Assembly (NCBI GenBank): GCA_013414795.1
Contig: CP058732.1
Span: 1,773,950 to 1,837,949 of the forward strand
Reading direction: 5' to 3'
Origin: Candidatus Kapaibacterium sp.
Lineage (GTDB): Bacteria; Bacteroidota; Ignavibacteria; Kapaibacteriales; UBA2268
Length of the DNA stretch: 64,000 bases
Shown here in pieces: positions 17,134 through 59,236 of the stretch (within the stretch, counting starts at the first letter, position 1; the number at the start of each line of letters is the position of its first letter). The position numbers and the translations under genes were made by a program. Under the pieces are notes generated by a model. The model saw nothing but the letters and a program-made list of their open reading frames with translations. It was not told the origin of the DNA and did no database searches.

Positions 17134-19251
17134 TTATACTGATATAGTAGCAACAATATCAATTTCTGTATCTGGGGGTAGTTCAGTATAACTTATAACG
17201 CTTATCATTGGAAATTGCGTCCGAACCATTCGATAAAAGTATGGTCTAATTTGGGCGGAACAAATAACCAAAGGCAAATAACCCATCAAAGTAATATCGT
17301 CGATTGCTTTTGAAAGAGATTCTTGAATTTTCTTAATTGTTTCGACTGAAAGTCCAAGGGTTTGCATCGAAGTCGCCTGGACATTAGTTTGAAGTACGTT
17401 GGATATCATTTGCTCGATTTCTGGGCTTAAAGCAATGCAATGAATTACGCCATTTTGGTCTTGGTACAATCTTTTAATTGTTTCTGAAAGATTGTGCCGT
17501 ACATATTCAGTAAGAACTTCAACATTCTTTGTAACTTTATAATACTCAAGTAGCGATTCGAGTATTATTGGCAAATCTTTGATTGGTATACCTTCTTTGA
17601 GTAAGTTCTGCAAGACCTTCTGAATTACAGACAACGGTAAGTTCTCTGGTGTTATTTCTTCAACTAATGCCGGGTAATCCGATTGAAGATTATCAATTAA
17701 TTTTTTGACTTCCTGGCGAGTTAGCAACTTGTCGGCGTTTCGTTTTAAAAGTTCTGTTAAATGAGTAATTAAAACTGTCGAGGCTTCTACAACGGAATAA
17801 CCCATAAGTTCGGCGTTTTCCCGTTCAGCATAGGAAATCCAAACTGCTGGTAAACCGAAGACTGGTTCCGTTACGTGAATACCAGAAATTTCACCCATTG
17901 CAGTTCCGGGGTTCATTGCAAGCAACATACCTGGTTGTAACGTGTTTCTGCCAACTTCGTTACCCCTTATTTTGATCACATACTCCTCGGGTTCCAGATT
18001 GAGATTGTCCCGAACTCTAACTGGTGGCAATATAATTCCCAATTCCAATGCAAGTTGTTTTCTTACATTCATTATCCTTCGAAATACATCACCACCCTGT
18101 GTCTCATCTACCAAAGGTATAAGATTGTATCCAAGTTCAAGTTCAACGGGGTCTACTTTTAGTAAATCTTCGATTGGCTGCTCTTCAACTTTCTGCGGCA
18201 CTTCTGCTTGAACAAGCTCTTGTCTTAATTTCTCTTCCTCTTCTTTTTTTACCTGTCGGTATCTTAAATATGCAAGAGCGCCCGTCAAACTACTAAGTAT
18301 TAAAAATGGAATTGTTGGAAAACCCGGAATAAAAGCCATAATAAACATAGCAAAAGATGCAAGGGAAATCGCAGTAGGTTTGCCCCCAATTTGCCTACCT
18401 AATTCAATATCCAACTTTTCAGCCGAGGAAGAGCGAGTTACAACAAATCCTGCTGCGACCGAAATCAAAAGTGAAGGTATTTGCGAAACAAGTCCATCCC
18501 CTATTGTCAATATTGTATAAGTAGACAAAGCATCTGTTAATGTCATACCACGTTGAGCAACTCCAATGGCAAACCCACCAATGATGTTTATTCCAGTAAT
18601 AATTAACCCAGCAATTGCATCACCACGAATAAACTTAGCAGCACCATCCATTGCTCCGTAAAAATCCGCTTCTTTAGTTAAATTTTGCCGTCTAATTCGC
18701 GCTTCTTGTTCATCAATATAACCTGCATTGAGGTCGGCATCAATACTCATTTGTTTTCCTGGCAGTGCGTCTAATGTAAATCTAGCTGCAACCTCGGCAA
18801 TTCGCGACGAACCTTTTATGATTACAATGAAATTGATTACCATTAAAATAATGAAGATGATTAATCCAACAATGTAATTCCCTCTAATTACAAAGGTACC
18901 GAAAGATTGGATTATCTCGCCAGCATAAGCATCTGTTAAAATCAACCTCGTAGTTGCAACATTCAAGCCCAATCTGAACAAAGTAGTAACCAAAAGAATA
19001 GTTGGAAAAGCAGAAAATTCCAACGGATTTTTCAGATACAACGAAACTAAAAGAATTAAAACAGCAAGGGATAGATTTGTTGCTATCAACAAATCCATTA
19101 AAATTGGAGAAAGGGGAATTATCAGTAGGCTGATAATTACTAAAATTCCCAGAGCTAACAGAATATCCTTGTTGTTCAAAATGTGGACTAGCCCACGTCC
19201 GACAATGTTATCCCCAACTGTTCTTCTTATGAAATCTTCTGCTTTGCTCAT
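17134..19251 (-). CDS. flhA: Flagellar export gate protein FlhA
   Basis: FlhA is the largest inner-membrane component of the flagellar type III export gate; its cytoplasmic ring docks chaperone-substrate complexes. The 705-residue protein has about eight N-terminal membrane segments (residues about 25-330), with the conserved FHIPEP-type region here containing LDALPGKQM and an intact loop, followed by the long cytoplasmic domain with PPVRVRDN and GNEVGRN. The ATG at 19251 overlaps the flhB stop by 4 bases (ATGA). The order fliP-fliQ-fliR-flhB-flhA is the standard export gate order, and the absence of injectisome genes argues for a flagellar rather than virulence type III system. No flhF or fliA follows; the next gene is a J-domain protein. 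Confidence 0.96.
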   Translation of the reverse strand: MSKAEDFIRRTVGDNIVGRGLVHILNNKDILLALGILVIISLLIIPLSPILMDLLIATNLSLAVLILLVSLYLKNPLEFSAFPTILLVTTLFRLGLNVATTRLILTDAYAGEIIQSFGTFVIRGNYIVGLIIFIILMVINFIVIIKGSSRIAEVAARFTLDALPGKQMSIDADLNAGYIDEQEARIRRQNLTKEADFYGAMDGAAKFIRGDAIAGLIITGINIIGGFAIGVAQRGMTLTDALSTYTILTIGDGLVSQIPSLLISVAAGFVVTRSSSAEKLDIELGRQIGGKPTAISLASFAMFIMAFIPGFPTIPFLILSSLTGALAYLRYRQVKKEEEEKLRQELVQAEVPQKVEEQPIEDLLKVDPVELELGYNLIPLVDETQGGDVFRRIMNVRKQLALELGIILPPVRVRDNLNLEPEEYVIKIRGNEVGRNTLQPGMLLAMNPGTAMGEISGIHVTEPVFGLPAVWISYAERENAELMGYSVVEASTVLITHLTELLKRNADKLLTRQEVKKLIDNLQSDYPALVEEITPENLPLSVIQKVLQNLLKEGIPIKDLPIILESLLEYYKVTKNVEVLTEYVRHNLSETIKRLYQDQNGVIHCIALSPEIEQMISNVLQTNVQATSMQTLGLSVETIKKIQESLSKAIDDITLMGYLPLVICSAQIRPYFYRMVRTQFPMISVISYTELPPDTEIDIVATISV

Positions 19252-20351
19252 TTATTACTTCTCAAGTTATTCTGAGATTCGTTTACATAATACACATAAG
19301 CCAAAACTTGGGCAACGGCTTTAAAAAGGAACTCGGGGATTTCCTCCTCGACTTCAACAGAATAATACAATGCTTGGGCAAGCGGTGGCTCTTCAACAAT
19401 TGGTATTCCATTTTCTTCTGCAATTTCGCGAATTTTCAGAGCAAGGAAATCCACTCCCTTTGCAACTACGACAGGTGCGTTCATTTTGTATGGTTTATAT
19501 TCAAGTGCAACAGCAAAATGTGTAGGGTTTGTCACAACAACATCTGCCCTTTTTTCAAGATTCTTCATAATGATTTTTCTTAATCTTTGCCGCATCAACC
19601 CACGAATTCTTGCCTTGACCATCGGATCGCCTTCGGATTGCCTTGCTTCCTCCTTAACTTCTTCCTTGGTCATCTTTAAATCCTCTTTATAACGACGTTT
19701 CTGGTAAAACATATCCGCAATAGCAATAAGAACATAAATAGCACCAACCTTTGTTATCAATTCAAACGTGACTTTGAACATTATTTCGGGTATTTCCCAA
19801 ATAGGTTTTTCAATCAAACTCAAGTCCCACGTTAAATGTTTTTCCAGAATTGAATAAACTACCCATCCAAGAATAATTAGTTTTGCAAGGCTTTTTACAA
19901 GTTCGAAATATGCTCGCCCAGAAAAGAACATTCTTTTCAAACCACCAAGAGGATTGAAAATTGAGCGAAAATTCAATCCCTTTGTGAATTTCTTTGTTGC
20001 CAGATGAAATCCAACTTGTGCAATTTCTGATGTGAGGACGAAAAAGTAAATAAGTGCTAACAAAGGCAAAATTGTTTGAGCAAGGAAAAAAATTGCGTTG
20101 CTGAAAATTCGAGCAACCTCTTGACTTGTAATTTGAATCACAAATGAATCGGAAAGACTTCTATTGAAATAACCTTGAAGATTTCGAACGATAACACTAA
20201 TATATAGAAGGGTTGCAAGCCCGCCAAGAATAATCATCACCGCGGTAGTAATATCCAAACTTTTGGCAACTTGTCCTCGTTGTCTTGCTTCGCTAATTCT
20301 TCGCGGTGTCGCTGGTTCTGTTTTCTCCCTTCCCTCTGGTGTTTCTGCCAT
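19248..20351 (-). CDS. flhB: Flagellar export switch protein FlhB
   Basis: FlhB switches export specificity from rod/hook to filament substrates. The 367-residue protein opens with the family's hydrophilic leader (EKTEPATPRR, ARQRGQVAKS), followed by four membrane segments and a cytoplasmic domain. The autocleavage motif NPTH is intact at residues 275-278, in the context VVTNPTHFAVAL. ATG at 20351; 6 bases separate it from fliR. It overlaps flhA by 4 bases, implying translational coupling. Length and motif are normal. The tail continues past the usual EEIP motif for about 30 residues. Confidence 0.96.
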   Translation of the reverse strand: MAETPEGREKTEPATPRRISEARQRGQVAKSLDITTAVMIILGGLATLLYISVIVRNLQGYFNRSLSDSFVIQITSQEVARIFSNAIFFLAQTILPLLALIYFFVLTSEIAQVGFHLATKKFTKGLNFRSIFNPLGGLKRMFFSGRAYFELVKSLAKLIILGWVVYSILEKHLTWDLSLIEKPIWEIPEIMFKVTFELITKVGAIYVLIAIADMFYQKRRYKEDLKMTKEEVKEEARQSEGDPMVKARIRGLMRQRLRKIIMKNLEKRADVVVTNPTHFAVALEYKPYKMNAPVVVAKGVDFLALKIREIAEENGIPIVEEPPLAQALYYSVEVEEEIPEFLFKAVAQVLAYVYYVNESQNNLRSNK

Positions 20352-20357
20352 AATCCA

Positions 20358-21143
20358 TTATCCAATTGTCATCAATATATTTAGCGTTTGTTTTTGAAAA
20401 ATTTCTAAAAACTGCTTCGAGGCAAATACGAAAAATGTTACAGCAAGGAAAAACACCAACAAGGCTACAGCAATTTTTACTTGAAAACTAACTACGAAAA
20501 TGTTTGTCTGTGGTGCCATTCTTGCTAACATTGCCAAAGAGACATTCACTAAAAATGTAGAAACAAAAATTGGAGCAGAAATTTTCAATGCAATAACAGT
20601 AACGTTAGCAAAGAACTTTCCAATTTCCGAAATTGTTGTTGAAGTCAGATTGCCCGTACCAATGGGAATTTTTGCGTAACTCAAATACAACGCCTCGAAA
20701 ACTTGGTGGTGTCCGTTTAAAATGAGAAAAAGCATTAGAACAACCATTTCCAAGAACTGTCCAAAAAGAGAAGGAGACGATTCCATAAAAGTAAATAAAG
20801 TTGCGGCTTGGAAACCAAGTTCGAAATCAATAATTCCGCCTCCAAAACGCATACCCCAAAAAACAAGATTGAAAATAAATCCAATCAACAAACCAATTAT
20901 AAATTCTTTGTGTAGAACAAATAATAATGCCCAGATGTCAAAATCCAAATCAATATTTAAATTTAAGGTGATTGCCATAATAAAAGATATCATCAAAGCA
21001 AGAAAGACTTTAAACATTGTAGGAAAAACTTGCATTCGAAAAATTGGCGTAAGTAGAAAAATACCAGAAACTCGTCCAAAAACCAATAGTACCAGAATAA
21101 GTTTTTCAAGGTACAAATTCAGAATGCCACTAAATAGTTCCAT
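20358..21143 (-). CDS. fliR: Flagellar export gate protein FliR
   Basis: FliR forms, with FliP and FliQ, the helical core of the flagellar export gate in the inner membrane. The 261-residue protein is almost entirely hydrophobic, with about six membrane stretches, a GRVSGIFLLTP segment near residue 24, and FGGGIIDFELGFQAA around residue 95, as in the family. ATG at 21143 overlaps the fliQ stop by one base (TAATG), so the two are translationally coupled. Normal length, nothing unusual. Confidence 0.94.
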   Translation of the reverse strand: MELFSGILNLYLEKLILVLLVFGRVSGIFLLTPIFRMQVFPTMFKVFLALMISFIMAITLNLNIDLDFDIWALLFVLHKEFIIGLLIGFIFNLVFWGMRFGGGIIDFELGFQAATLFTFMESSPSLFGQFLEMVVLMLFLILNGHHQVFEALYLSYAKIPIGTGNLTSTTISEIGKFFANVTVIALKISAPIFVSTFLVNVSLAMLARMAPQTNIFVVSFQVKIAVALLVFFLAVTFFVFASKQFLEIFQKQTLNILMTIG

Positions 21144-21409
21144 TACCTCAAGGTTGAAATGATGTTAATAATTTGAACAGTGAAGTACTTTAACTTTTGA
21201 ATAATAAATGGTATAAGAAGAACCACAGTTAAAAAAACTGCAATTATTTTTGGAACAAATGTTAATGTTTGCTCCGAAATTGTTGTTGCTGCTTGAAACA
21301 TAGAAATCATCAAGCCAACGACAAGAGATACCAACAGTATTGGTCCGCTAACCAGCAAAACATAATAAAAAGAATCCCGAACAATATTTAGAATCATTTG
21401 GTCTGTCAT
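21143..21409 (-). CDS. fliQ: Flagellar export gate protein FliQ
   Basis: FliQ is a small two-helix subunit surrounding the FliP-FliR core of the export gate. The 88-residue protein has two long hydrophobic segments (about 15-38 and 52-72) separated by the conserved ATTISEQTLTFVPK. An AGGTG ribosome binding site lies just before the ATG at 21409. It sits 7 bases after fliP and overlaps fliR by one base. Confidence 0.95.
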   Translation of the reverse strand: MTDQMILNIVRDSFYYVLLVSGPILLVSLVVGLMISMFQAATTISEQTLTFVPKIIAVFLTVVLLIPFIIQKLKYFTVQIINIISTLR

Positions 21410-21416
21410 AATTCAC

Positions 21417-22220
21417 CTATGTTATTAACAATCCTTTCAACAATGAGTCAATTACAAGATACCAACCATCGACCAAAACAAAAAGAAGAATCTTCAAAGG
21501 AAGTGAAATTAACTGCGGAGGCAAAAGAAACATTCCCAATGACATTAAAACGCTCGCAATTATCATATCCAAAACAAGAAAGGGTACAAACAAAAGAAAT
21601 CCTATTTGAAATGCAATTCGTAATTCACTAATTGAGTAGGCTGGAATTATAGTCCAAATGGATAATTCGGAAGGGTCTCGAGGTCGTTCTTTTCCCGAAA
21701 GTTTAAGAAACAAAGCAAGGTCCTCTTGCCTTGTATATTTAAGCATAAATTGTTTAAATGGATTTACAATGTTATCAAGTGCTTGTTGTTGAGTAATTTC
21801 ATCTCGAAGATACGGTTGTAAACCTTCTCTATTTGCCTTATCTATAACTGGTTGCATAACAAAAAATGTAAGGAACAAAGCAAGGCTAACAAGCATTTGG
21901 TTCGGTGGTTGTGTCTGTGTTCCAAGAGCCTGGCGAAGGAAATGCAAAACGACGACAATTCGAGTAAAACAAGTCATCATCACAAGTATTGAGGGGGCAA
22001 GGGTCAATACAGTCATCAAAAGGAGAATCTGCAATCCGACGGAAAGTTCGTTCTTTTTTTCCGTTCCCCCAATACTTATTGTAACTTGTGGAATTTGCAA
22101 TTGTTGCCCACTTGGTTGTTGCAGCGTGGGTTGCGAGCGTGCAACCCCATTGATTGACAATAGGAAAACTAACAACAAGATTCCCCAGATGTATACTTTA
22201 TTTCTTTTCAATTTTCGCAA
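21417..22220 (-). CDS. fliP: Flagellar export gate protein FliP
   Basis: FliP builds the pentameric core of the export pore. The family signature is clear: LTLAPSILVMMTCFTRIVVV, LRQALGTQ, PPNQMLVSLALFLTFFVM, and a C-terminal IGFLLFVPFLVLDMIIASVL. FliP is made with a signal peptide, seen here as KLKRNKVYIWG followed by a hydrophobic run ending ARS-QP. I place the start at the TTG at 22220, just before this signal (267 residues). An ATG at 22352 would add 44 unconserved aromatic-rich residues. The start is uncertain because no clear ribosome site precedes either codon. fliO, often found upstream of fliP, was not seen; rsmE lies there instead. Confidence 0.92.
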   Translation of the reverse strand: MRKLKRNKVYIWGILLLVFLLSINGVARSQPTLQQPSGQQLQIPQVTISIGGTEKKNELSVGLQILLLMTVLTLAPSILVMMTCFTRIVVVLHFLRQALGTQTQPPNQMLVSLALFLTFFVMQPVIDKANREGLQPYLRDEITQQQALDNIVNPFKQFMLKYTRQEDLALFLKLSGKERPRDPSELSIWTIIPAYSISELRIAFQIGFLLFVPFLVLDMIIASVLMSLGMFLLPPQLISLPLKILLFVLVDGWYLVIDSLLKGLLIT

Positions 22221-22381
22221 AATGTAATCAAAAGGAGAAATTTCACAAGAAATATACCAATAAAGATGGGATTGTAAGTTCTTTAATTTAAATGAATTAA
22301 AAAATCTGCTTTTCAAAAACCACAAAAAAAAGCAGAAAAACCAACAATGCATTGGTTAAAATAGCACAAATGTATAATAAT

Positions 22382-48708: not shown

Positions 48709-49455
<747 letters not shown>

Positions 49456-49490: not shown

Positions 49491-51071
49491 TTAAGCCATT
49501 TTTGGCTCTAAAATCACAACTGGTACAATCATTTCTTCCATTGAGATACCACCGTGCTGGAAACTATCTTTGTATCTCTGCAAATAATAGTGATAATCTG
49601 TTGGATAGACAAAATAATAATCTTCTTTGGCTATAATGTTATTTACTGTAATCGATATCTTTGGCAATTTCAATTCTGTCAAATCTGAAATTTGCATAGC
49701 ATATCGAGGTTCACACTTGACATTTTTTCCAAATTTGTATCGTAATGAAGTAGAAGTTTCGCGGTCGCCTAAAACTTTCACCCCTCTCATACAACGAATC
49801 GAACCATGGTCGGTTGTTAGAATTATTTTTACATTAGGGTAATTGGAGAGAACTTGAAGCATACCCAATAAACTCGAATGGCTAAACCAGGAACGAGTTA
49901 AAGAACGGTAAGCAGATTCATTCGGCGCAATTTCTTTCAAAATAGCAAAGTCAGAGCGTGAGTGGGCAATCATATCGACCGAATTGACAACAATAGCAGT
50001 TAAGTGATTCTTTGCATATTTATGAATTTCGGATTCAACCTTTTTACCGAATTCAGTTTCGTGGATTTTAATGTAGGTCAATGGTGTTGTCAAGTTAATT
50101 TTCTTCCTTTTCAGTTGTTCAATTAGTAATTCCTTTTCGAAAGCATTTTGCTTATGGTCCTCGGTATTTAATTCGCCAACCCAATATTGTGGATAGTGTT
50201 TTTGAATATCAATTGGAAACAATCCAGAAAAGATAGAGTTTCTTGCATAGGGGGTTGCAGTGGGCAAAATTGACATATAAAATTCTTTTCTAATCTTGTA
50301 AAATTGTTGCAAGATTTCTTCCATTACAAGCCATTGGTCAAGCCGTAAACAATCAATAACAAAAAAGAACAAGTTGGTTTTAGAGTTAAGATTTGGAATA
50401 ACATAATTTTCAACAATTTCTGGAGAAAGAATCGGGCGTCCGTCGCTTTTTTCAGTATTGATAATGTCTTTATAATTTTTCTCTATGTAATTTGAAAAGA
50501 CAGTGTTTGCTTCTCGAAAAATATCCCGCAAAGAATCATCTAATCCCGCAGAAGGATATTTATCCAATTCCAAAGACCAATTCACAAGTTTTGTATAAAT
50601 TTCCACCCAATCTTCCCATTCAAGGGAATCATTTAACCGCACTCGAATATTTGTTGTATCTGTCAAAAAATTTTGAATTAGTTTTTCCTGGCTAATTCTA
50701 TCCGATTCGAGAAAACGCTTGCAAATTGCAAGAATTTGTGTCGGATTGACTGGCTTTGTCAAATAGTCGTCTATCTTTCGACCGATAGCCTCTTCCATCA
50801 ATGTTTCTGCTTCGTTTTTTGTAACCATAACTACGGGTAGATAAGGATTTATTTCCTTAATTGAAACAAGGGTGTCCAAACCACTCATTCCAAGCATCAT
50901 TTCGTCGAGGAAAATCAAATCATAGATATTGCTTCGAACGAGTTCCAATCCGTCTTCTCCGCTTGTAGCAGTGTCGACTTCGAACCCTTTCTGCTTCAAC
51001 AAAATCAGATGGGGACGAAGGAGTTCAATCTCATCGTCAATCCAAAGAATGCGACCTTTTGGTTTTTCCAT
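49491..51071 (-). CDS. porX: PorX: receiver plus PglZ-type phosphatase-like regulator of T9SS
   Basis: PorX is a response regulator controlling type IX secretion genes in Bacteroidota. The 526-residue protein has a receiver domain (LWIDDEIE; phosphoacceptor Asp56 in FLDEMMLG; Lys near 105 in LTKPVNP), a helical linker, and a C-terminal alkaline-phosphatase-like PglZ domain with metal-site elements FFFVIDCLRLDQW, ILPTATPYARNS, NSVDMIAHSR and ILTTDHGSIR. Length and order match PorX of Porphyromonas (known family architecture). It supports the sorting domains found on three secreted proteins here. Its partner kinase PorY is not obvious. It is divergent from the truncated clpB with a 126-base shared upstream region. 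ATG at 51071. Confidence 0.92.
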   Translation of the reverse strand: MEKPKGRILWIDDEIELLRPHLILLKQKGFEVDTATSGEDGLELVRSNIYDLIFLDEMMLGMSGLDTLVSIKEINPYLPVVMVTKNEAETLMEEAIGRKIDDYLTKPVNPTQILAICKRFLESDRISQEKLIQNFLTDTTNIRVRLNDSLEWEDWVEIYTKLVNWSLELDKYPSAGLDDSLRDIFREANTVFSNYIEKNYKDIINTEKSDGRPILSPEIVENYVIPNLNSKTNLFFFVIDCLRLDQWLVMEEILQQFYKIRKEFYMSILPTATPYARNSIFSGLFPIDIQKHYPQYWVGELNTEDHKQNAFEKELLIEQLKRKKINLTTPLTYIKIHETEFGKKVESEIHKYAKNHLTAIVVNSVDMIAHSRSDFAILKEIAPNESAYRSLTRSWFSHSSLLGMLQVLSNYPNVKIILTTDHGSIRCMRGVKVLGDRETSTSLRYKFGKNVKCEPRYAMQISDLTELKLPKISITVNNIIAKEDYYFVYPTDYHYYLQRYKDSFQHGGISMEEMIVPVVILEPKMA

Positions 51072-51197
51072 TATTTTCTCAAATTATTAAACAAAAGCAA
51101 AAAGGTAGAAACGTACTCTATTTAAAATTTTTTATTAATTTACAATATTTAAAGAATGTTTGAATTGTAAATTATTGTTGAAAAAATATAATAAAAA

Positions 51198-52520
51198 ATG
51201 AATTTCCAGAAATTTACATTAAGGTCGCAAGAGGCTGTTCAAACTGCACAAGAAATTGCAATTAACTACAACCATCAAGCGCTCGAACCTATTCATCTAT
51301 TCGCTGCTCTTGTCCAAGACGAAGATGGATTGGTTGTTGAAATACTTAAAAAATTGGAAGTTAATTTAGCCAAACTTAAAGTAAAAGTAAATGAACTTTT
51401 AGAAAGCCTACCCAAAGTTACTGGTTACACGGGGAATCTATATCTTAGCCCTTCGCTAAACGAGGTGTTCGATACATCATTCAAAGAAGCAAAATTGATG
51501 CATGACGAATATGTTAGCGTCGAACATCTTCTGCTTGCTCTTCTTTCTGTTCGTTCAAATGTTGCAGATTTGCTCAAATCTTATAATGTTACAAAAGATG
51601 ATATTTTGAAAATACTTAAAGAAATTCGAGGTGGACATAGAGTAACCGACCAAAGCCCCGAAGAAAAATACCAAGCACTTCGCAAATATGGAAGAATCTT
51701 GAATGATGAAGTTAGAGAGGGCAAATTAGACCCCGTGATTGGCAGAGAAGAAGAAATCCGAAGAGTACTTCAAGTACTGTCGCGAAGGACAAAGAATAAT
51801 CCAGTTTTAATTGGCGAGCCCGGGGTTGGAAAAACAGCAATAGTCGAGGGAATCGCTCAGATGATTGTTTCTGGAGATGTTCCAGATAATTTGAAGGACA
51901 AAATTGTAGTAATGCTGGATATGGGTGCTTTGGTTGCTGGAACACAATTTCGGGGACAATTCGAAGAGCGATTGAAAGCAGTTATCAAAGAAGTTACAGA
52001 ATCCAATGGCCAGATAATTCTTTTCATCGACGAAATCCATACACTCATCGGTGCTGGAGCAACACAAGGTAGTATGGACGCGGCAAACATCTTAAAGCCA
52101 GCCCTTGCCCGCGGTGAATTGCGTTGTATCGGAGCAACGACACTCGACGAATATCAAAAATACATTGAAAAAGACCCAGCACTCGAACGCCGTTTCCAAA
52201 AAGTCTTTGTCGACGAACCTACAGTTGAAGAAACAATTTCGATTTTGCGTGGTTTGAAGGAAAAATACGAAGTGCATCATGGTGTTAAAATTTCAGATGC
52301 AGCCATTGTCGCAGCAGCAGAACTTTCCAATCGATATATAACCGATAGATTCCTTCCCGACAAAGCAATCGATTTGATTGACGAAGCAGCAAGCAAAATA
52401 AAATTAGAAATCGAATCTATGCCAGAAGAACTTGATTCAATTGAACGCAAAATTCGTCAACTTGAAATAGAGCGAGAAGCACTTATTCGAGAACTTAAAA
52501 GCAAAGGTGTGGAAATATAA
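51198..52520 (+). CDS. clpB: Truncated ClpB: N domain and first AAA+ domain only
   Basis: ClpB disaggregates proteins with DnaK and is normally about 860 residues. Here only 440 residues are encoded: the N domain (about 1-145), AAA+ domain 1 with Walker A GEPGVGKT (206-213), Walker B ILFIDEIH, pore loop [12 protein letters not shown], Arg-finger region ALERRFQ, and the first helix of the middle coiled coil ([23 protein letters not shown]), which stops at KGVEI. The second AAA+ ring is absent, and the next gene's ATG overlaps this stop by one base (TAATG), so the ending looks settled rather than a simple frameshift. No clpB remainder was found in the other frames nearby. Start ATG at 51198. 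Confidence 0.88.
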
Positions 52521-53731
52521 TGGAAGAATTCTTCATTCCATTTTGTCTTGTAGAGAAAAGTGAATCAACCAAAAACTCCTTAAAAAAAGTTATTGAAAGA
52601 ATTTTTCGAAAATCCCCAATTTTCACTGTTAACGATGGAGTTGAATGTTGGGACCTTGTCCAAAAATATAACGATTTAATGATCATCGTTGCAAATTATC
52701 TCGAAGACCAGTATCTAACCGAACAACTTGTTAAAAACATTCGTGAATCTGAAAATACTAACATTCGTAATATTTTTGTAATCTTTATTACATCAAACTC
52801 CAATGCTGAAATAAACTTTAAAGCATTGCAAGTTGGGGCTGATGATTTCATTAATAAACCGTTTTTAATCGATGAAGTGATTGCAAAATTTCAAAATGCA
52901 TACAGAATTATGCATCTTTACAAAACCATAGAATTCCATACAAAAACAATCCAAGATTTGAATGAAGAACTTCGCAGAGACACTTTGAGAATGCGGGACC
53001 TGTTGTACCTTTTTGAATGTTTGCGAATACCAGACGGAGCCGAAAGAATAAATCGTATCACAGAGATTGCCCTTTGGATTGCTAATGAATATGACCCAGA
53101 AGACGAAAAATTAAAAAATCTAATTCAAGAGGCTGCGAAATTATGTTTTGTTGGAAGATTACAACTTCCAGAAAGAAATATTGGTGAAATTCCTACCCAA
53201 AACGGAATTCTTAAAAATGAAAAAATGGAAAAAATTCCATTTTTTTCAAAAGAAGTTTTTTCATTTTTTCGCTCCTATCAAGACGTTGCCGACGTTGTAA
53301 TTCATATTTACGAAAATTACGATGGGAGCGGTTTGCCAGATAAGTTGGAAAAGGGCAATATTCCCCTCGCTTCTCGTATCTTACGAGTTGTTATTGATTA
53401 TGATGATTATTACCAACAGAAAAAGTTTGAAAGCAACAAAATAGTTGCAATGTTGGAAGCAGAGTCTCGAAGATTGTATGATTTTCGTATTGTTGTGCTT
53501 TTAGACCAATATCTTGCCTATCGCTCTTCAATTCTTAAAGTTCCAACTGAACGTCCAATCGAGATCGACGAACTTGCCGAAGGGATGACTCTTTCGAGGA
53601 ACATTGTAACCGAAACGGGATTGAAGATTGCCGTTGCTGGAACCCTTCTAAACGAAGAGGCTGTCGAGAGAATTAAAACTATAGCGAAAGCAGAGCCAAT
53701 TATTGGCAGAATTTACATCAAAATACAATGA
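52520..53731 (+). CDS. Degenerate receiver plus degenerate HD-GYP protein
   Basis: The 403-residue protein resembles a receiver (about 6-125) followed by an HD-GYP-like domain (about 155-330) and a C-terminal beta domain (EIDELAEGMTLSRNIVTETG). In the receiver the acidic pair is VEK and the phosphoacceptor position (MIIVANY) is not Asp, although Lys113 (INKPF) stays. In the HD-GYP part the HD pair reads Cys209-Phe210 (AAKLCFVGRLQLPE) and HHE..DGSGYP reads YENYDGSGLP (268-273). It therefore probably lacks phosphorylation and cyclic-di-GMP phosphodiesterase activity and may be a scaffold or sensor. It overlaps clpB by one base and flbD by four. Confidence 0.8.
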   Translation: MEEFFIPFCLVEKSESTKNSLKKVIERIFRKSPIFTVNDGVECWDLVQKYNDLMIIVANYLEDQYLTEQLVKNIRESENTNIRNIFVIFITSNSNAEINFKALQVGADDFINKPFLIDEVIAKFQNAYRIMHLYKTIEFHTKTIQDLNEELRRDTLRMRDLLYLFECLRIPDGAERINRITEIALWIANEYDPEDEKLKNLIQEAAKLCFVGRLQLPERNIGEIPTQNGILKNEKMEKIPFFSKEVFSFFRSYQDVADVVIHIYENYDGSGLPDKLEKGNIPLASRILRVVIDYDDYYQQKKFESNKIVAMLEAESRRLYDFRIVVLLDQYLAYRSSILKVPTERPIEIDELAEGMTLSRNIVTETGLKIAVAGTLLNEEAVERIKTIAKAEPIIGRIYIKIQ

Positions 53732-53940
53732 TATTAGTTACGAAAATTGACGGTCAAAAGATTGTTATCAACGCAGAAGAAATCGAAACCATTGAAATCG
53801 GTCCGAATTCTGTAATCTCTTTACGAAGTGGTAAAAAGTTTCTCGTAAAAGAGACTTACGAAGAAATTACAAATTTGGTGATTGAATATAAAAAGAAGTT
53901 ACACCATCTTCTTCCCAAAATTGAAGACCACCAGGATTAA
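53728..53940 (+). CDS. flbD: Flagellar FlbD-family protein
   Basis: The 70-residue protein fits FlbD: ILVTKIDGQKIVINAEEIETIE, a GPNSVISLRSGKKFLVKE core and an amphipathic VIEYKKKLHHLL end. FlbD-type small proteins occur with motility genes in spirochaetes and others; their exact role is not established. It is coupled to the previous gene by an ATGA overlap. Combined with the fliP-flhA genes it supports a flagellated ancestor or organism, but its neighbours here (barrel, HATPase, ATPase) are not flagellar. Confidence 0.82.
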   Translation: MILVTKIDGQKIVINAEEIETIEIGPNSVISLRSGKKFLVKETYEEITNLVIEYKKKLHHLLPKIEDHQD

Positions 53941-55813
53941 GTTCTTCTTGTTTTGTCTACTCAATTGCTTGTGTTGTTCTCCAAAACTACTTTCTCAAAT
54001 CTTACTCTTTGAACATTCCGACACTTTGAAAAATGCAAACCATTTATCTCAAGTCTTTGACAAACAATTCAATATCTACCGTTACACAAATTCTTTCTCC
54101 TACATAAAAGAATTATATAAAACTGAATTCGGAATTTCAAACGAATACGAAGGCTTTTTGATACGTGGAAATGAAAATTCAAAAAAAGATGGAGAAAAAT
54201 TTAATTTCTATATTTCTCAAAACCTATTTTCTTTTCTGAAATTTTTTACAGATGTAAACTATCTGTTGAACTCCGATTCTAAAACGATTGGATTAAACGA
54301 AGCAGAAAAACTAAACCTAAATGTTGGCTCTTCTTTTGTTATTACGAATTTTGGCAAAAGTTTTATTTCCTATGGTATTGAAAAAAACAAACAAGTTTCA
54401 ATTTACCAACAAGGTCCACGTTTTGCTTTTGGGTTAAGGACGGAAAAAATAAATATAACTGATGTAAACCTCAATACAAATTTTTTTTGGGAAAAGGTTA
54501 AACTTAAAGACGGAAGGAAAAGTTCTACGATTACTTTTGAAACATTTCTTGATGGAAAATTCGAAGAGGGAAATTCAATATTTCTTGCATTAGATTATCA
54601 AAACATTCAACGGGATTACGTTGTATTTCCCATTTATTTAAATAACTTCTTCGAATCAAGACTTGAAAACAAAATCTTTCCAACTTTTGGTTTGAACTAT
54701 AATTTATTCGACAAAACTTTCGTTTCATTTACTGGTAGAGTTTATTCTTACAAAATCCAACGCTTTTATAATCTCTTCGACCCAACGAATCAATACACCG
54801 CAGTTGAAAGAACCTTATATGAACAATCTTTCGACTTAAATTTTGAATTATTTGCTCAAAGCAAATATTTTAGCCCAAAACTTGGTTTTAGTTACTTTTA
54901 TCGAAATGAGGAAAACGCCCTAAATAAAAGGTTCGACATAGATATACAAACATTTTCACAACTGTCAACAACCGAATTTCAAAAAAACAACTACCAAACA
55001 AGATTGAAATTGTTCTACAATTTGATTTTCTATCCTAGTTCGAGTAATATGACAACATTTTCGGGGAACGTTGGTATTTTGCGATACGATACCCCTTCCA
55101 CACTAAACGACGACGACCGAGACGAATTCCAATTTTTCACTTCTCTATCAACAAGACAACAAATATCCAAACACTACGCCCTTTCGCTCGCTTTGGATGT
55201 ACAAATGTTTCATCTGGTCTTCCTCAAATCTTCACACAGTTCCTTGAACAATTGGAATAGAATCATCAAACTTAGCGCAAGTAATGATTTTCAAACCGAA
55301 AACTTCGTTTGGAAACCAACTTTTGAAATTTTTTCCAACTATCTTGTTTATGATTTCGAAACTTCGGCAACTGGTATTCAAAGTTATGCTTTCCGTCAAT
55401 TCGTGTATAAAGATACATTACAATTATTCTTATCGAAGAACATCAGTTTCTCTGCATTCTTAGTTTACAAATATTCCGAGCGAGGAACTTTGTATTGGAA
55501 AGATTTTGCAATGACTAAAGAATTGGATATCAAGGAACTTTTTGCTAAAACTATGCTCTACTATAATCATCAAAACAAAGTTCAATTTGGCTTTGGAGCA
55601 AGAGCATACAATATTACCCAAAAGCCAATTGGTAAAAGAAATTTACCAGAAAGTTACTCTTATTATTCATTATCCCCAGAAACGGAAATAAAAATTTTTC
55701 TAAGTAAGAATAATGTAATATTTTTGCAAGGTTGGTACGAGTTAAAATTTTTGAATTACAAAATTGTCGGGGAAAACCCAAATTTGATGCTTACAACAAT
55801 GGTAAATTTGTAA
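53882..55813 (+). CDS. Outer-membrane beta-barrel-like protein
   Basis: The 643-residue frame starts at TTG 53882 inside flbD; the exact start is uncertain. A signal-peptide-like stretch (FFLFCLLNCLCCSPKLLSQ) follows a basic leader, and the mature part is rich in alternating polar/hydrophobic strands with many Tyr, Phe and Asn residues (LNFELFAQSKYFSPKLGFSYFY, VQFGFGARAYNI), typical of a large outer-membrane barrel. No family was recognised. A few later start codons (TTG near 53950) would shorten the leader and weaken the signal. The stop shares one base with the ATG of the HATPase gene. In-frame overlap with flbD is 59 bases. Confidence 0.72.
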   Translation: MNIKRSYTIFFPKLKTTRIKFFLFCLLNCLCCSPKLLSQILLFEHSDTLKNANHLSQVFDKQFNIYRYTNSFSYIKELYKTEFGISNEYEGFLIRGNENSKKDGEKFNFYISQNLFSFLKFFTDVNYLLNSDSKTIGLNEAEKLNLNVGSSFVITNFGKSFISYGIEKNKQVSIYQQGPRFAFGLRTEKINITDVNLNTNFFWEKVKLKDGRKSSTITFETFLDGKFEEGNSIFLALDYQNIQRDYVVFPIYLNNFFESRLENKIFPTFGLNYNLFDKTFVSFTGRVYSYKIQRFYNLFDPTNQYTAVERTLYEQSFDLNFELFAQSKYFSPKLGFSYFYRNEENALNKRFDIDIQTFSQLSTTEFQKNNYQTRLKLFYNLIFYPSSSNMTTFSGNVGILRYDTPSTLNDDDRDEFQFFTSLSTRQQISKHYALSLALDVQMFHLVFLKSSHSSLNNWNRIIKLSASNDFQTENFVWKPTFEIFSNYLVYDFETSATGIQSYAFRQFVYKDTLQLFLSKNISFSAFLVYKYSERGTLYWKDFAMTKELDIKELFAKTMLYYNHQNKVQFGFGARAYNITQKPIGKRNLPESYSYYSLSPETEIKIFLSKNNVIFLQGWYELKFLNYKIVGENPNLMLTTMVNL

Positions 55814-56232
55814 TGAGTAGCAAAGAGACAATCGAGATAACTAAAAATTTTAAAACTGATAAAAAAATATTAGCAGAAATAGAAACAATATTAAAGTCAA
55901 TCCAAAAACAGTTCCCATTTGGAGATGACAAATTTCACAACATTTTGATTGCTACTACCGAGGCGTTAATAAATGCAATCCAACACGGGAACAAATTCGA
56001 TCCTAATAAACAAGTAACATTGAAGATAACTGGAAATAAAGAACTGGTACAAGTCGTTGTTCAAGACGAAGGCGAAGGATTCGACCCATCGACAATACCA
56101 GACCCAAGGTCGCCCGACAATATTCTCAAAGAAAGAGGAAGAGGTATTTTTTTGATTCGTGAACTTTCGAATTCGGCACAAATCATTACTGGAAAAACTG
56201 GAACTACTGTTATAATGAATTTTTACATATAA
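55813..56232 (+). CDS. RsbW/SpoIIAB-like HATPase (anti-sigma-type serine kinase)
   Basis: The 139-residue protein has the HATPase_c fold of the RsbW group: FHNILIATTEALINAIQHGN (N box), VVVQDEGEGFDPSTIP (G1 box) and RGRGIFLIRELS (G2 box). Such proteins usually bind sigma factors or anti-sigma antagonists and phosphorylate the latter. No cognate sigma factor or STAS antagonist is adjacent. I use ATG at 55813, which shares one base with the stop of the barrel gene (TAATG); an earlier GTG in the frame was rejected because the extra 27 residues overlap the barrel's last strand. The ATPase gene starts 6 bases later. Confidence 0.85.
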   Translation: MSSKETIEITKNFKTDKKILAEIETILKSIQKQFPFGDDKFHNILIATTEALINAIQHGNKFDPNKQVTLKITGNKELVQVVVQDEGEGFDPSTIPDPRSPDNILKERGRGIFLIRELSNSAQIITGKTGTTVIMNFYI

Positions 56233-56238
56233 AACCTT

Positions 56239-58386
56239 ATGGAAAGAGCAAATTCTTCGGTTATTAAGGAAATTTTGGATTTTTCGTATCCCTTTTTCTT
56301 TGTCAATGGAACTGTCGGTGTTGGCAAGTCTACAATTGTAAACGAGGCATTAAATAGAATTTCCAACGAAGAGGAAAATATTGTTACAATTAAATTAGAC
56401 TTGAACCAATCCCACCATTTCATCCAATTAGCAAATGCTTTGCAAGTCGGCACAAAGTTAAAAGATGTTCAAACACTTTTCGACGAAGTAAAATTCTATC
56501 TAAACAAATTTTCAAATCTTATTGATGTTTTAATCTCAAAAAATAAAAATTTGGCAAGTATTTTTTTCGACGCATACAATTTTAGAGACTATTTTCTTAC
56601 CGAATATTTAAACGAAACTCCTTTCTTGGAACTCCATCGCTACAAAAACCAACTCGATGAATTATTCGAGAAAAAAATCGACAAAAGAGTACTTTTAAAA
56701 TTGTTCGATGTTCTTTCGGAGGCATTTGTCTATTCTCTAATTCAAATTAAGCAGACAAATGAATTGGAGCAAAATCTAAAAGTAGTTTTCGTTGTTGATA
56801 ATTACGAACACGGTGCTGGTATTGTTGACCATTGGGTAATAAATCACCTTTATCGCACTTTTTACTATAAGACTTTTGCAAATTTCGAATCTTATGAAAT
56901 ACATAAAACCTTGTCGAACAAAAAGCCGATAGACTTTTTCGATGTCAAATTTGTTCTTATTTCCCGTGAGCCTTTTACACTTAAAAAAATATTGTACTCC
57001 GAGCCAAAAGAAAAAGTAAAGAACCATAAAATTCAGCCCTACACCAAAGAAGAACTGACATCTTTAGTTGAGAATTATAATTTTCAACAACCCTTGGAAG
57101 AAATTTTGGCGTTAACTTTCGGCATTCCTTATGCTGTTGATTACATTTTTCAAAATTTGAAGTGTGAATTAAACGAAGAGAAACAAAAACGGTTCTTTGA
57201 GGAAATGTTCATAAAAGTCACCCAAAGAACAAATCCAATGATTTTAAGCATTTTAAAATTAATTTCTGTTTTTGATTATTTCACTCCCGAGGCAATTAGA
57301 TGCGTACAAGGAACTTACCCAAAACACGAAAAAATCTTCAAATATTTAGCCGACAATTCGGATTTATGTGAATTTTATCAAAAAGAGTCCGATTTAATTC
57401 GGATTGCACCACACTATAAATTTTTCGTCTCAACATACTTAAAAATTTTCGAGAAAGAAGCATTTGAAAAATTTCAATTTTTGTTTTCGCAGTTTCAAGA
57501 GGGATTCAACGCTTTGAAGGATTTGGAATATGAGGAAAGAAAAATTTTTCGTAACCTTGCTTACTTAAAAGAATTCATTGTTGGCGAAGTATTGCAAAAC
57601 ATTTTTCAAGAGGATTACCCAAAGGTCGAAAAATTCATTAAAGAAAATTCCAATCTATTCCAAGTTGATAATGATATTTACAAAATACCGAAAGAAATTA
57701 GAGAAAAAATCCTTGCATTTAACAAATTGATTGACAACGAAAGATACATTCTTAAAATTGAGTTTATCAAAGAAAGTATTTTAGGTAATTTAAAAGAAAC
57801 CAAACAAAAAATTGAAAATTTGAAAATTCAACAACAACAAAATTTAGACAGAATTAAGAAAATTCAATATATCAAAGCAAGAATTAATGAAGAGATTCAA
57901 GATACTCAAAAGAAGATAGTCGCCTCGGAGAACTATTTAATTGATTTAAACACTAAAAGGTATAGCACAAGTCGCAAATACACTTGGGTTCCCTTCACCC
58001 TATTAGCGATACTTTCAATTATTACATTTATCGTAGGTAACAACATATTGTACATTTTCAACGAAACTATGAATATGGAATCAATTTCTGGGCTTGGAAC
58101 CGCTTTGAAAATACTTTCCATACTGCTTTTTGGCATACTTTTGTACGTCTTGATTGACCATTTTGGTTCGAAGGAAAGGAAAGAATTTATTCGAGGAGCA
58201 GAGGAATTCATCAATACCGAGGAAGAAAAACTTGCCGAACTTAAAGAATGTCTAAACGAATACAAATTAGCATTGAAACAATTTGATGAAGAACTTCAAA
58301 TAAAATTCAAAGAAAACCAATCACTCGAAGGCAAAATTGAATCTCTTGAAAAAATTCTTAAAGTAGACTTTGTCGATGCAACATAA
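56239..58386 (+). CDS. Unrecognised membrane-anchored P-loop ATPase with coiled coils
   Basis: The 715-residue protein starts with a P-loop domain (Walker A GTVGVGKST, residues 24-32; probable Walker B VVFVVDNYEHG near 180-190) of AAA/STAND-like character, with a helical middle (about 300-515) and no recognisable sensor. Then a coiled-coil stretch (about 520-570, rich in Gln, Lys and Glu), two membrane helices (about 583-607 and 622-643) separated by a short loop, and a second coiled coil to the end. The helices make a hairpin, so both coiled coils should be on the same side as the ATPase, in the cytoplasm. I do not know the family. It is the last gene of the six-gene coupled group; 136 bases of AT-rich DNA separate it from sdhC. 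Confidence 0.8.
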   Translation: MERANSSVIKEILDFSYPFFFVNGTVGVGKSTIVNEALNRISNEEENIVTIKLDLNQSHHFIQLANALQVGTKLKDVQTLFDEVKFYLNKFSNLIDVLISKNKNLASIFFDAYNFRDYFLTEYLNETPFLELHRYKNQLDELFEKKIDKRVLLKLFDVLSEAFVYSLIQIKQTNELEQNLKVVFVVDNYEHGAGIVDHWVINHLYRTFYYKTFANFESYEIHKTLSNKKPIDFFDVKFVLISREPFTLKKILYSEPKEKVKNHKIQPYTKEELTSLVENYNFQQPLEEILALTFGIPYAVDYIFQNLKCELNEEKQKRFFEEMFIKVTQRTNPMILSILKLISVFDYFTPEAIRCVQGTYPKHEKIFKYLADNSDLCEFYQKESDLIRIAPHYKFFVSTYLKIFEKEAFEKFQFLFSQFQEGFNALKDLEYEERKIFRNLAYLKEFIVGEVLQNIFQEDYPKVEKFIKENSNLFQVDNDIYKIPKEIREKILAFNKLIDNERYILKIEFIKESILGNLKETKQKIENLKIQQQQNLDRIKKIQYIKARINEEIQDTQKKIVASENYLIDLNTKRYSTSRKYTWVPFTLLAILSIITFIVGNNILYIFNETMNMESISGLGTALKILSILLFGILLYVLIDHFGSKERKEFIRGAEEFINTEEEKLAELKECLNEYKLALKQFDEELQIKFKENQSLEGKIESLEKILKVDFVDAT

Positions 58387-58522: not shown

Positions 58523-59236
58523 ATGGGATTTTTTAGTTATCTTCGTTCAACAGTCTTAAGTAAAGTAGTAATGGCAATTACAGGGGCAATAATTGTCCTT
58601 TATGTAATTGTCCACACAGCGGGAAATCTGCTTATCTATCTTGGACGGGATACTTTGAACTCTTACTCTGCGTTCCTACACAGCCTTGGTCCAATTCTCT
58701 GGATTATCCGAATAATATTAATTGTATCAGCCATCCTTCACATTATTACTTCAATTAAGTTGAAATTTGAAAACTGGCGTTCAAAACCCACAAAGTATGC
58801 TGTCAAAAACTATTTAAAAGCCAAATTCACTTCACGAACTATGATTTGGACTGGACTGATGATTTTGGCTTTTGTTATCTATCATTTATTGCATTTCACC
58901 ATAAGAGTTACAAACCCCCAACACTATTATCCCGAGTTTTACCAACCACACAATGCCGTTTCTTCTGTTATTCTTGAAAGATTTGATGTTTACAGAATGG
59001 TGGTTTTGGGATTCCAAAATCCTTTAATTTCAATTGTTTATATTATTGGAGTTATAACTGTTGGTTTCCACTTAGACCACGCTATCCAAAGTATGTTCCA
59101 AACGCTTGGTTACAACCAAAAGCACTATTTTCCAACAATACAAAAGTGTAGTACTGGCATAGCAATAATCATTGCTCTTTGTCTTGTTTCTATACCAATT
59201 TCAGTTATGTTAGGTTTCGTAGGAGGTGGAATATGA
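58523..59236 (+). CDS. sdhC: Succinate dehydrogenase cytochrome b subunit (Bacteroidota type)
   Basis: This 237-residue protein is the single membrane anchor of SdhCAB of the kind used in Bacteroidota, combining roles of SdhC and SdhD. It has five hydrophobic stretches with internal histidines ([43 protein letters not shown]) that would ligate heme b. It starts at ATG 58523, preceded by GGGG-type purines, and its TGA overlaps the sdhA ATG by four bases. Order C-A-B as in Bacteroides/Chlorobi. Confidence 0.93.

Follow-up and report, generated by a model that had tools for sequence, protein, structure and literature searches.

The gene cluster at positions 51198–58386 of a 64,000-nucleotide stretch of DNA from Candidatus Kapaibacterium sp. 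(GenBank assembly GCA_013414795.1, contig CP058732.1, positions 1,773,950 to 1,837,949; hereafter the window) encodes part of the chaperone ClpB in line with degenerate signalling domains, a predicted outer-membrane barrel, an RsbW-like protein and an ATPase. The first gene had been described in an earlier note on this DNA as a truncated clpB, a chaperone fragment, a description that proved wrong. This organism encodes ClpB at two unlinked loci, each with an intact gene that carries catalytic motifs, and the division falls within the M-domain; the gene in the window is the complete N-terminal half and an intact C-terminal half lies elsewhere in the genome. The explanation favored here, with a probability of about two in three, is a two-chain ClpB disaggregase encoded beside an envelope regulatory module, rather than one six-part machine. 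The most surprising part of the locus is the two-gene ClpB, not the mixture of functions, and the most useful one is the widely conserved pair of barrel and RsbW-like genes.

ClpB encoded by two unlinked genes

The N-terminal half, clpB-N (51198–52520, plus strand), encodes 440 amino acids comprising two Clp_N repeats, NBD1 and the first part of the M-domain, and matches the ClpB model TIGR03346 with 679 bits over model positions 1–428 of 853. It aligns without gaps to residues 3–433 of the ClpB chain 6oax, which we take to be Escherichia coli ClpB, and a stretch of 19 residues is retained in it. The C-terminal half was found by searching the genome, a single contig of 2,660,650 bases (G000 in our set), for the ClpB C-terminal domain (PF10431). 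It is an intact open reading frame (ORF) of 439 amino acids on the minus strand (G000 C1:1754329–1755648), outside the window and about 70 kb from the N half, which scores 636 bits over positions 427–852 of TIGR03346 and matches residues 428–846 of 1qvr; it is followed by an OmpA-domain gene and preceded by a family-less gene and, before that, proline dehydrogenase. The two halves tile the model end to end with an overlap of two positions, and NTD, NBD1, M-domain and NBD2 are all encoded in the genome over two genes. Walker A/B, arginine-finger and sensor motifs are present in both halves and recur among relatives, per motif, in 61–74 of 74 N halves and in 23–26 of 26 C halves. To judge from sequence comparison, clpB-N is under purifying selection, with a ratio of non-synonymous to synonymous differences (pN/pS) of 0.07–0.09 in two comparisons in which synonymous sites are near saturation. 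No full-length ClpB was found in the source genome with the ClpB-N query and the PF10431 search, none of its proteins reaching the TIGR03346 cut-off of 1232 bits: the query matched itself and a protein of 856 amino acids (982 bits), to which the label ClpC was assigned, whereas PF10431 matched this protein, the ClpB C half and two others of about 425 and 490 amino acids.

Gene decay or an assembly error could in principle make clpB look truncated, and in a relative of the same class (G273) the gene is indeed interrupted close to the split point, by what looks like a frameshift at an A-run. This explanation is nonetheless extremely improbable, as many genomes, several of which are single contigs (G000, G045, G104, G147, and G169), have both halves as open, conserved frames at unlinked positions, and a pseudogene or assembly error was rejected on account of the intact, conserved C half.

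The split arrangement runs through the order. The full-length cut-off is reached by none of 100 genomes of the order (the source genome included) and by 152 of the 247 genomes of the phylum sample; at least 85 of the 100 order genomes have the N half, at least 59 the C half and at least 52 both. The phylum genomes below the cut-off number 95, that is 21 of this order and 74 others, 28 of which were examined. Strong N-half matches occur in 25 of these 28 (22 separate ORFs of 437–463 amino acids, two contig-end cases and one frameshift), G137 and G309 have weaker N-half matches only and G204 has none. The ClpB genes of G297 and G300 were not accepted as split because they are probably full-length genes interrupted by contig ends, and G273 was not counted because the frames of its two touching ORFs differ by a slip at the A-run just before the M-domain junction. 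In G273 (loci L195 and L225) this would be a recent frameshift or a sequencing slip, other sampled members of its family having mostly full-length ClpB. Of 30 genomes chosen for having the N half or ClpB, 27 yielded a C half (G273 and G010 included), and a separate C half was not seen in G300.

Two further observations concern members of the order. In G036 the best match to the ClpB model falls short of those given by the N halves of related genomes, and this genome may have lost a half. Five members that also carry the ClpB N half encode ClpB-like proteins of about 900 amino acids (L048–L052), which are probably TssH/ClpV; the one of the five tested, L048, reaches 1218 bits against a cut-off of 885, a match that hints at type VI secretion.

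Outside the order the split also occurs in families f24 and f26, which we take to be Chloroherpetonaceae-like and Chlorobiaceae-like, respectively; in f26 the N half is present in 12 of 12 genomes examined and the C half in 3 of 3. UniProt holds two ClpB entries of about 440 amino acids for Chlorobaculum tepidum. A split gene hides ClpB from length-based annotation, and the f26 counts may be compared with a signature survey of 2007 in which ClpB was reported in only one Chlorobi species (PMC1887533). Literature searches covering open PubMed Central papers retrieved no paper on a natural ClpB split.

Junction and origin of the split

The break falls at the same point across lineages, including the Chlorobia-like families. 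Of 74 distinct N halves, 67 end 2 to 12 residues past variants of one 11-residue motif, the others being longer (two) or off-pattern (five), and 21 of 26 C halves begin 6 to 14 residues ahead of the next conserved stretch, the remaining five having a longer upstream frame or being off-pattern. In full-length ClpB the junction corresponds to a short variable spot, with three residues fewer in 5 of 15 aligned full-length proteins, and this spot presumably lies in the first M-domain helix of the ClpB structure. A three-residue deletion in ClpB of many Bacteroidetes is described in the 2007 paper (PMC1887533), and we think that it affects the same variable spot.

Whether the gene was split once or more often was addressed with ClpB trees, all built in quick mode. 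In the C-half tree (88 rows) 14 rows of the order form one clade (support 99, starred) and 8 rows of f24, f26, and f39 another (100, starred); no resolved placement was obtained for split rows from f16, f18, and f20. The N tree (66 rows) likewise places 16 order rows together with G217 (99, starred) apart from 8 rows of f24, f26, and f39 (100, starred); five split rows, including L120 and L123, do not resolve. In the joint tree of both halves (48 rows) the order groups with f16, f18, and f20 (88), against f24, f26, and f39 (100, starred). Holding all 26 split rows together in the C-half tree gave an approximately unbiased (AU) test p of 0.678, the held-together tree being 12.3 log units better, and one origin is not rejected there; a single split clade is rejected by the joint tree (AU p 0.0165). 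A single origin of the split is accordingly disfavored by one tree and not by the other, hence we only lean towards the view that ClpB may have been split twice at one site. L120 and L121 carry Kapabacteria-type clpB-N and FlbD genes; in the N tree L120 is not part of the Kapabacteria clade.

The two chains could also act apart, ClpB-N as a single-ring AAA+ protein near the envelope and ClpB-C as a single-ring unfoldase comparable to human CLPB/Skd3. The two genes are indeed unlinked, only the N half is seen beside the barrel module, and human CLPB/Skd3 is an active relative with one ClpB-like NBD (PMC7343390). Separate action is nevertheless unlikely: the halves cover the whole ClpB model and share one split M-domain helix, C halves occur in nearly all of the 30 genomes picked for the N half or ClpB, and NBD2 of Hsp104 or ClpB on its own is reported to be inactive (PMC7343390). 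Engineered chains of bacterial ClpB, one with NTD, NBD1, and M-domain and one with NBD2, are active in trans (Beinker 2005, as cited in PMC7343390), and separate NBD1-M and NBD2 have been described (PMC4239642). Because such engineered halves reconstitute activity, we infer, as the simplest view, that the natural halves would assemble in trans.

The genes that follow clpB-N

As the earlier note had it, the six ORFs follow each other on one strand with tight spacing. clpB-N is followed, on the plus strand, by genes for a degenerate receiver and HD-GYP-like protein (52520–53731; 403 amino acids; PF00072 and PF13487 above cut-off), an FlbD-family small protein (53728–53940; 70 amino acids; PF06289, 72 bits against a cut-off of 24.7; the sole FlbD match in a profile search of the source genome), a predicted outer-membrane beta-barrel with no family model (53882–55813; 643 amino acids from TTG 53882), an RsbW-like HATPase_c_2 protein (55813–56232; 139 amino acids; PF13581, 88 bits, scored on a longer ORF) and a membrane-tethered STAND/AAA+-like P-loop ATPase (56239–58386; 715 amino acids). 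The overlaps measure 1, 4, 59 (if the barrel starts at TTG 53882), and 1 base and are followed by a gap of 6 bases. The true start of the barrel may be TTG 53921, which reduces its overlap with FlbD from 59 to 20 bases; as the spacing of the two genes in 22 loci of relatives, measured between longest ORFs, varies between −173 and +132, the 59-base overlap is probably a matter of start-codon choice. The longest ORF of the RsbW-like gene begins at TTG 55732, and ATG 55813 fits the lengths in relatives.

Upstream of clpB-N, porX (49491–51071, minus strand; 526 amino acids; NF052313, 678 bits against a cut-off of 300) is transcribed divergently across an intergenic region of 126 bp (51072–51197) that is partly conserved within the genus (60% mean column identity in five aligned sequences). 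The same divergent neighbor stands beside clpB-N in nine genomes (G000–G004, G009, G024, G027, and G028), and among the window proteins scanned with models of the type IX secretion system (T9SS) only porX matched. Over the whole cluster promoter-like matches were fewer than in shuffled sequences (17 vs. 27), and terminator-like sites numbered 9 vs. 4.9 in shuffles. Those on the plus strand lie at 53373, inside the receiver/HD-GYP gene, and at 58618, past the ATPase; the cluster scan found no plus-strand terminator-like site between any of the six genes. Beyond porX, a tRNA-Ala gene (49382–49455, minus strand) shares 35 bases with the end of the thiamin pyrophosphokinase ORF (final base 49416), so that the true terminus of this ORF may differ from the listed one.

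The complete order of six genes is found again in all five genus members compared (G000–G004, the source genome included) and in G022 of another genus; the arrangement is therefore more than chance. A conserved neighborhood, the check proposed in the earlier note, thus exists but it is layered, the genes differing in range. Among 50 barrel loci fetched, some with short flanks and with the locus of the window itself too short to include clpB-N, FlbD was found upstream of the barrel in 22, the receiver/HD-GYP gene in 8, clpB-N in 12 and the ATPase downstream in 14. The order FlbD-barrel-RsbW spans four families and the receiver/HD-GYP gene four genera. By coordinates, clpB-N adjoins the barrel block in 13 of 60 relatives, which represent at least 9 genera of the family, and in a distant f39 genome (G173), which has no RsbW-like gene at this locus, it is separated from the barrel by 88 bp; none of the other loci seen has it next to the block. 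In three genomes (G017, G020, and G034) FlbD comes after clpB-N with no barrel gene alongside, and 5 of 18 fetched regions have FlbD at a distance from the barrel. Flanking genes differ as well (YmdB, ZIP, M28 peptidase, GT87, and others); in three genomes (loci L269, L282, and L283) the FlbD-barrel-RsbW block is preceded by a gene for a YmdB-family phosphoesterase.

These ranges bear on the proposal that the six genes form one dedicated envelope-spanning machine, driven by ClpB-N and the STAND/AAA+-like ATPase. The tight coupling in the window, the order shared by the genus and G022, and the predicted barrel and membrane ATPase speak for it; the counts in the 50 barrel loci, the variable flanks and the separation of FlbD from the barrel show that the genes are not inherited as a unit. 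Such a machine is very unlikely and was dropped as the default explanation since the ranges of the genes differ. What survives of the envelope-spanning system suggested earlier is a link to the envelope through the barrel and the membrane-tethered ATPase, both of them predicted from models. The suggestion that the cluster is phage-related fared worse: the barrel has no PHROGs match, the coiled coil of the ATPase has a single weak one (E 3e-4), and the PADLOC anti-phage search matched none of the 4 proteins submitted, a set that did not include ClpB-N and FlbD. A phage or defense origin was rejected on these results.

The pair of barrel and RsbW-like genes is the deep core and the most widespread part of the cluster. 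Of 60 relatives, 57 have the barrel, 55 of them in single copy (G003 carries it on duplicate contigs and G056 in two pieces); it also occurs in 40 of 41 sampled class genomes outside the order and in 97 of the 247 genomes of the phylum sample. None of these 97 is an f24 or f26 genome with split ClpB, and since these two families have the split without the barrel, the split is independent of the barrel module. The RsbW-like gene is the next one after the barrel in 45 of the 50 loci (33/35 in the order, 5/5 in the rest of the class and 2/3 in f39, with misses also in two further families); it was not found there in G037, G081, G173, G202, and G102, where some flanks are short. Within the RsbW-like protein the E, N-A, HGN, D-G-GF, and GRG residues are invariant in 17 of 17 sequences, all of which have the N, G1, and G2 boxes for ATP binding. 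The barrel family has no Pfam match in any of 22 alignment members, and its profile gave one chance-level match (E 0.91) against PDB sequences. It is predicted to be an outer-membrane protein, with a possible export signal, judged by eye, and an AlphaFold2 model of 30 listed strands (predicted local distance difference test, pLDDT, 78.6; predicted template modeling score, pTM, 0.66; residues 1–51 of low confidence). A barrel without a Pfam family, nearly always single-copy and paired with an RsbW-like gene in Kapabacteria, their class, and f39, deserves attention in studies of the envelope.

The remaining members have narrower ranges. The ATPase occurs in 21 of 60 relatives, all but one of which belong to the family; Pfam AAA matches are below cut-off, and its AlphaFold2 model (pLDDT 85.7, pTM 0.67) predicts an NTPase with a winged-helix-like region in residues 1–429, the remainder being a long coiled coil and a hydrophobic hairpin (hydrophobic stretches 581–608 and 615–644), predicted to be transmembrane. 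The receiver/HD-GYP protein scores 34.8 bits for Response_reg (cut-off 30.2) and 60.7 for HD_5 (cut-off 27.2). That its signaling domains are catalytically degraded, as had been noted, was borne out: HD and HH ligands are missing in 7 of 7 aligned sequences and GYP is found only in L039, and the receiver phospho-acceptor Asp is replaced by Ala in the window and the genus and by His in L083, L039 having Asp. Because these ligands are absent and yet the protein is 77–84% identical to its genus relatives, with pN/pS of 0.12–0.13 in two comparisons (synonymous sites near saturation), it seems to be kept as a non-catalytic protein.

A flagellar accessory role for the FlbD-barrel-RsbW-ATPase group is possible but doubtful. 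FlbD belongs to a flagellar family and flhA, flhB, fliR, and fliP lie in this window (17134–22352). FlhA is present in 27 of 29 genomes with FlbD vs. 21 of 31 without it (Fisher p 0.022), and in 20 of 21 genomes with the ATPase vs. 28 of 39 without it (p 0.042), but both tests disregard shared ancestry and repeated testing. The barrel-RsbW pair, moreover, occurs in members of the order without FlhA (G028, G036, G041, G043, G045, G049, and G059), two of which (G028 and G043) have FlbD. FlbD was not accepted as proof of a flagellar role, the association leaving kinship out of account, and its flagellar link is retained as a lead. The flagellar export genes at 17134–22352 coexist in this genome with the T9SS gene porX.

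A probable two-chain disaggregase beside a proposed envelope module

Under the explanation favored here, the two ClpB chains would jointly restore the M-domain coiled coil and form the double-ring hexamer typical of ClpB, which would thread proteins out of aggregates together with DnaK, and the cut would allow the N ring and the C ring to be dosed separately. The barrel, the RsbW-like protein, FlbD, the ATPase, and the receiver/HD-GYP protein would make up a regulatory module of the envelope. Its RsbW-like protein may be a partner-switch-type kinase, and the inactive receiver/HD-GYP protein and the ATPase may act as switches and not as enzymes of cyclic di-GMP (c-di-GMP). ClpB-N would stand beside this module and porX for shared expression under stress, not as a structural part. 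A bolder version, offered tentatively and itself somewhat unlikely, holds that two fissions, one in Kapabacteria and near relatives and one in Chlorobia-like bacteria, took place at the same point of the M-domain helix, giving separately dosed rings, and that in the Kapabacteria family the N ring became tied to an envelope-stress module of an undescribed barrel and an RsbW-like kinase.

Several results weigh against a two-chain ClpB tied to such a module. On the ClpB side, the C half is broken in G037, in pieces in G046, and stop-bearing in G010, some genomes lack a strong N-half match (e.g., G036, which is rated 100% complete, best E 9e-153), and clpB-N has Phe at the pore-loop position where 6oax has Tyr. 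On the side of the module, the functional tie between clpB-N and the barrel is weak because only 12 of the 50 loci have clpB-N upstream (that of the window being too short to count), gene order by itself does not establish a single transcript, and a plus-strand terminator-like site lies within the receiver/HD-GYP gene (53373). The RsbW-like protein scores only 43.8 bits against the NCBIfam RsbW cut-off of 145, and no sigma or anti-anti-sigma gene occurs among the identified neighbors, the genome not having been searched for STAS or sigma genes.

In ClpB the M-domain, to which DnaK binds, couples the two rings, and the mechanism depends on this coupling. A lineage with the rings on separate chains is a natural counterpart of the engineered split and offers a test of which couplings need a covalent link.

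Compared with known systems, the module shows partial likenesses. The best structural match of the barrel model is 6r2q_B, presumably an MtrB-type barrel (the entry is titled Mtr complex), with Z 16.4 over 478 residues; identity is only 6%, the root-mean-square deviation is 7.3, and other barrels are nearly as close (Z 15–16). Residues 1–429 of the ATPase model resemble the NTPase and winged-helix-like region of the STAND/AAA+ proteins Dark, Sso1545, NLRs, and CED-4 (Z 12.6–14.2) and of Cdc6/ORC (Z 11–12), ORC being ranked first by Foldseek, but the predicted protein then continues into a coiled coil with a transmembrane hairpin and its model has no repeat sensor domain. The RsbW-like protein shares the HATPase_c_2 family and the ATP-binding residues of the RsbW/SpoIIAB anti-sigma kinases; it differs from them in falling below curated cut-offs, in being paired with a predicted outer-membrane barrel and in having neither a sigma nor an anti-anti-sigma gene among the neighbors identified.

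The pair of ClpB halves is closer to its model. It has all the domains and catalytic motifs of ClpB/Hsp104 (TIGR03346), which it covers from end to end, and differs in that they are divided between two chains with unlinked genes, the cut lying in the M-domain, presumably in its first helix. As in the engineered Thermus ClpB (Beinker 2005, as cited in PMC7343390), NBD1 is on the N-terminal chain and NBD2 on the C-terminal chain; in the engineered protein the M-domain is carried by the NBD1 chain, whereas in the natural pair, taking the usual limits of the M-domain, most of it belongs to the C chain.

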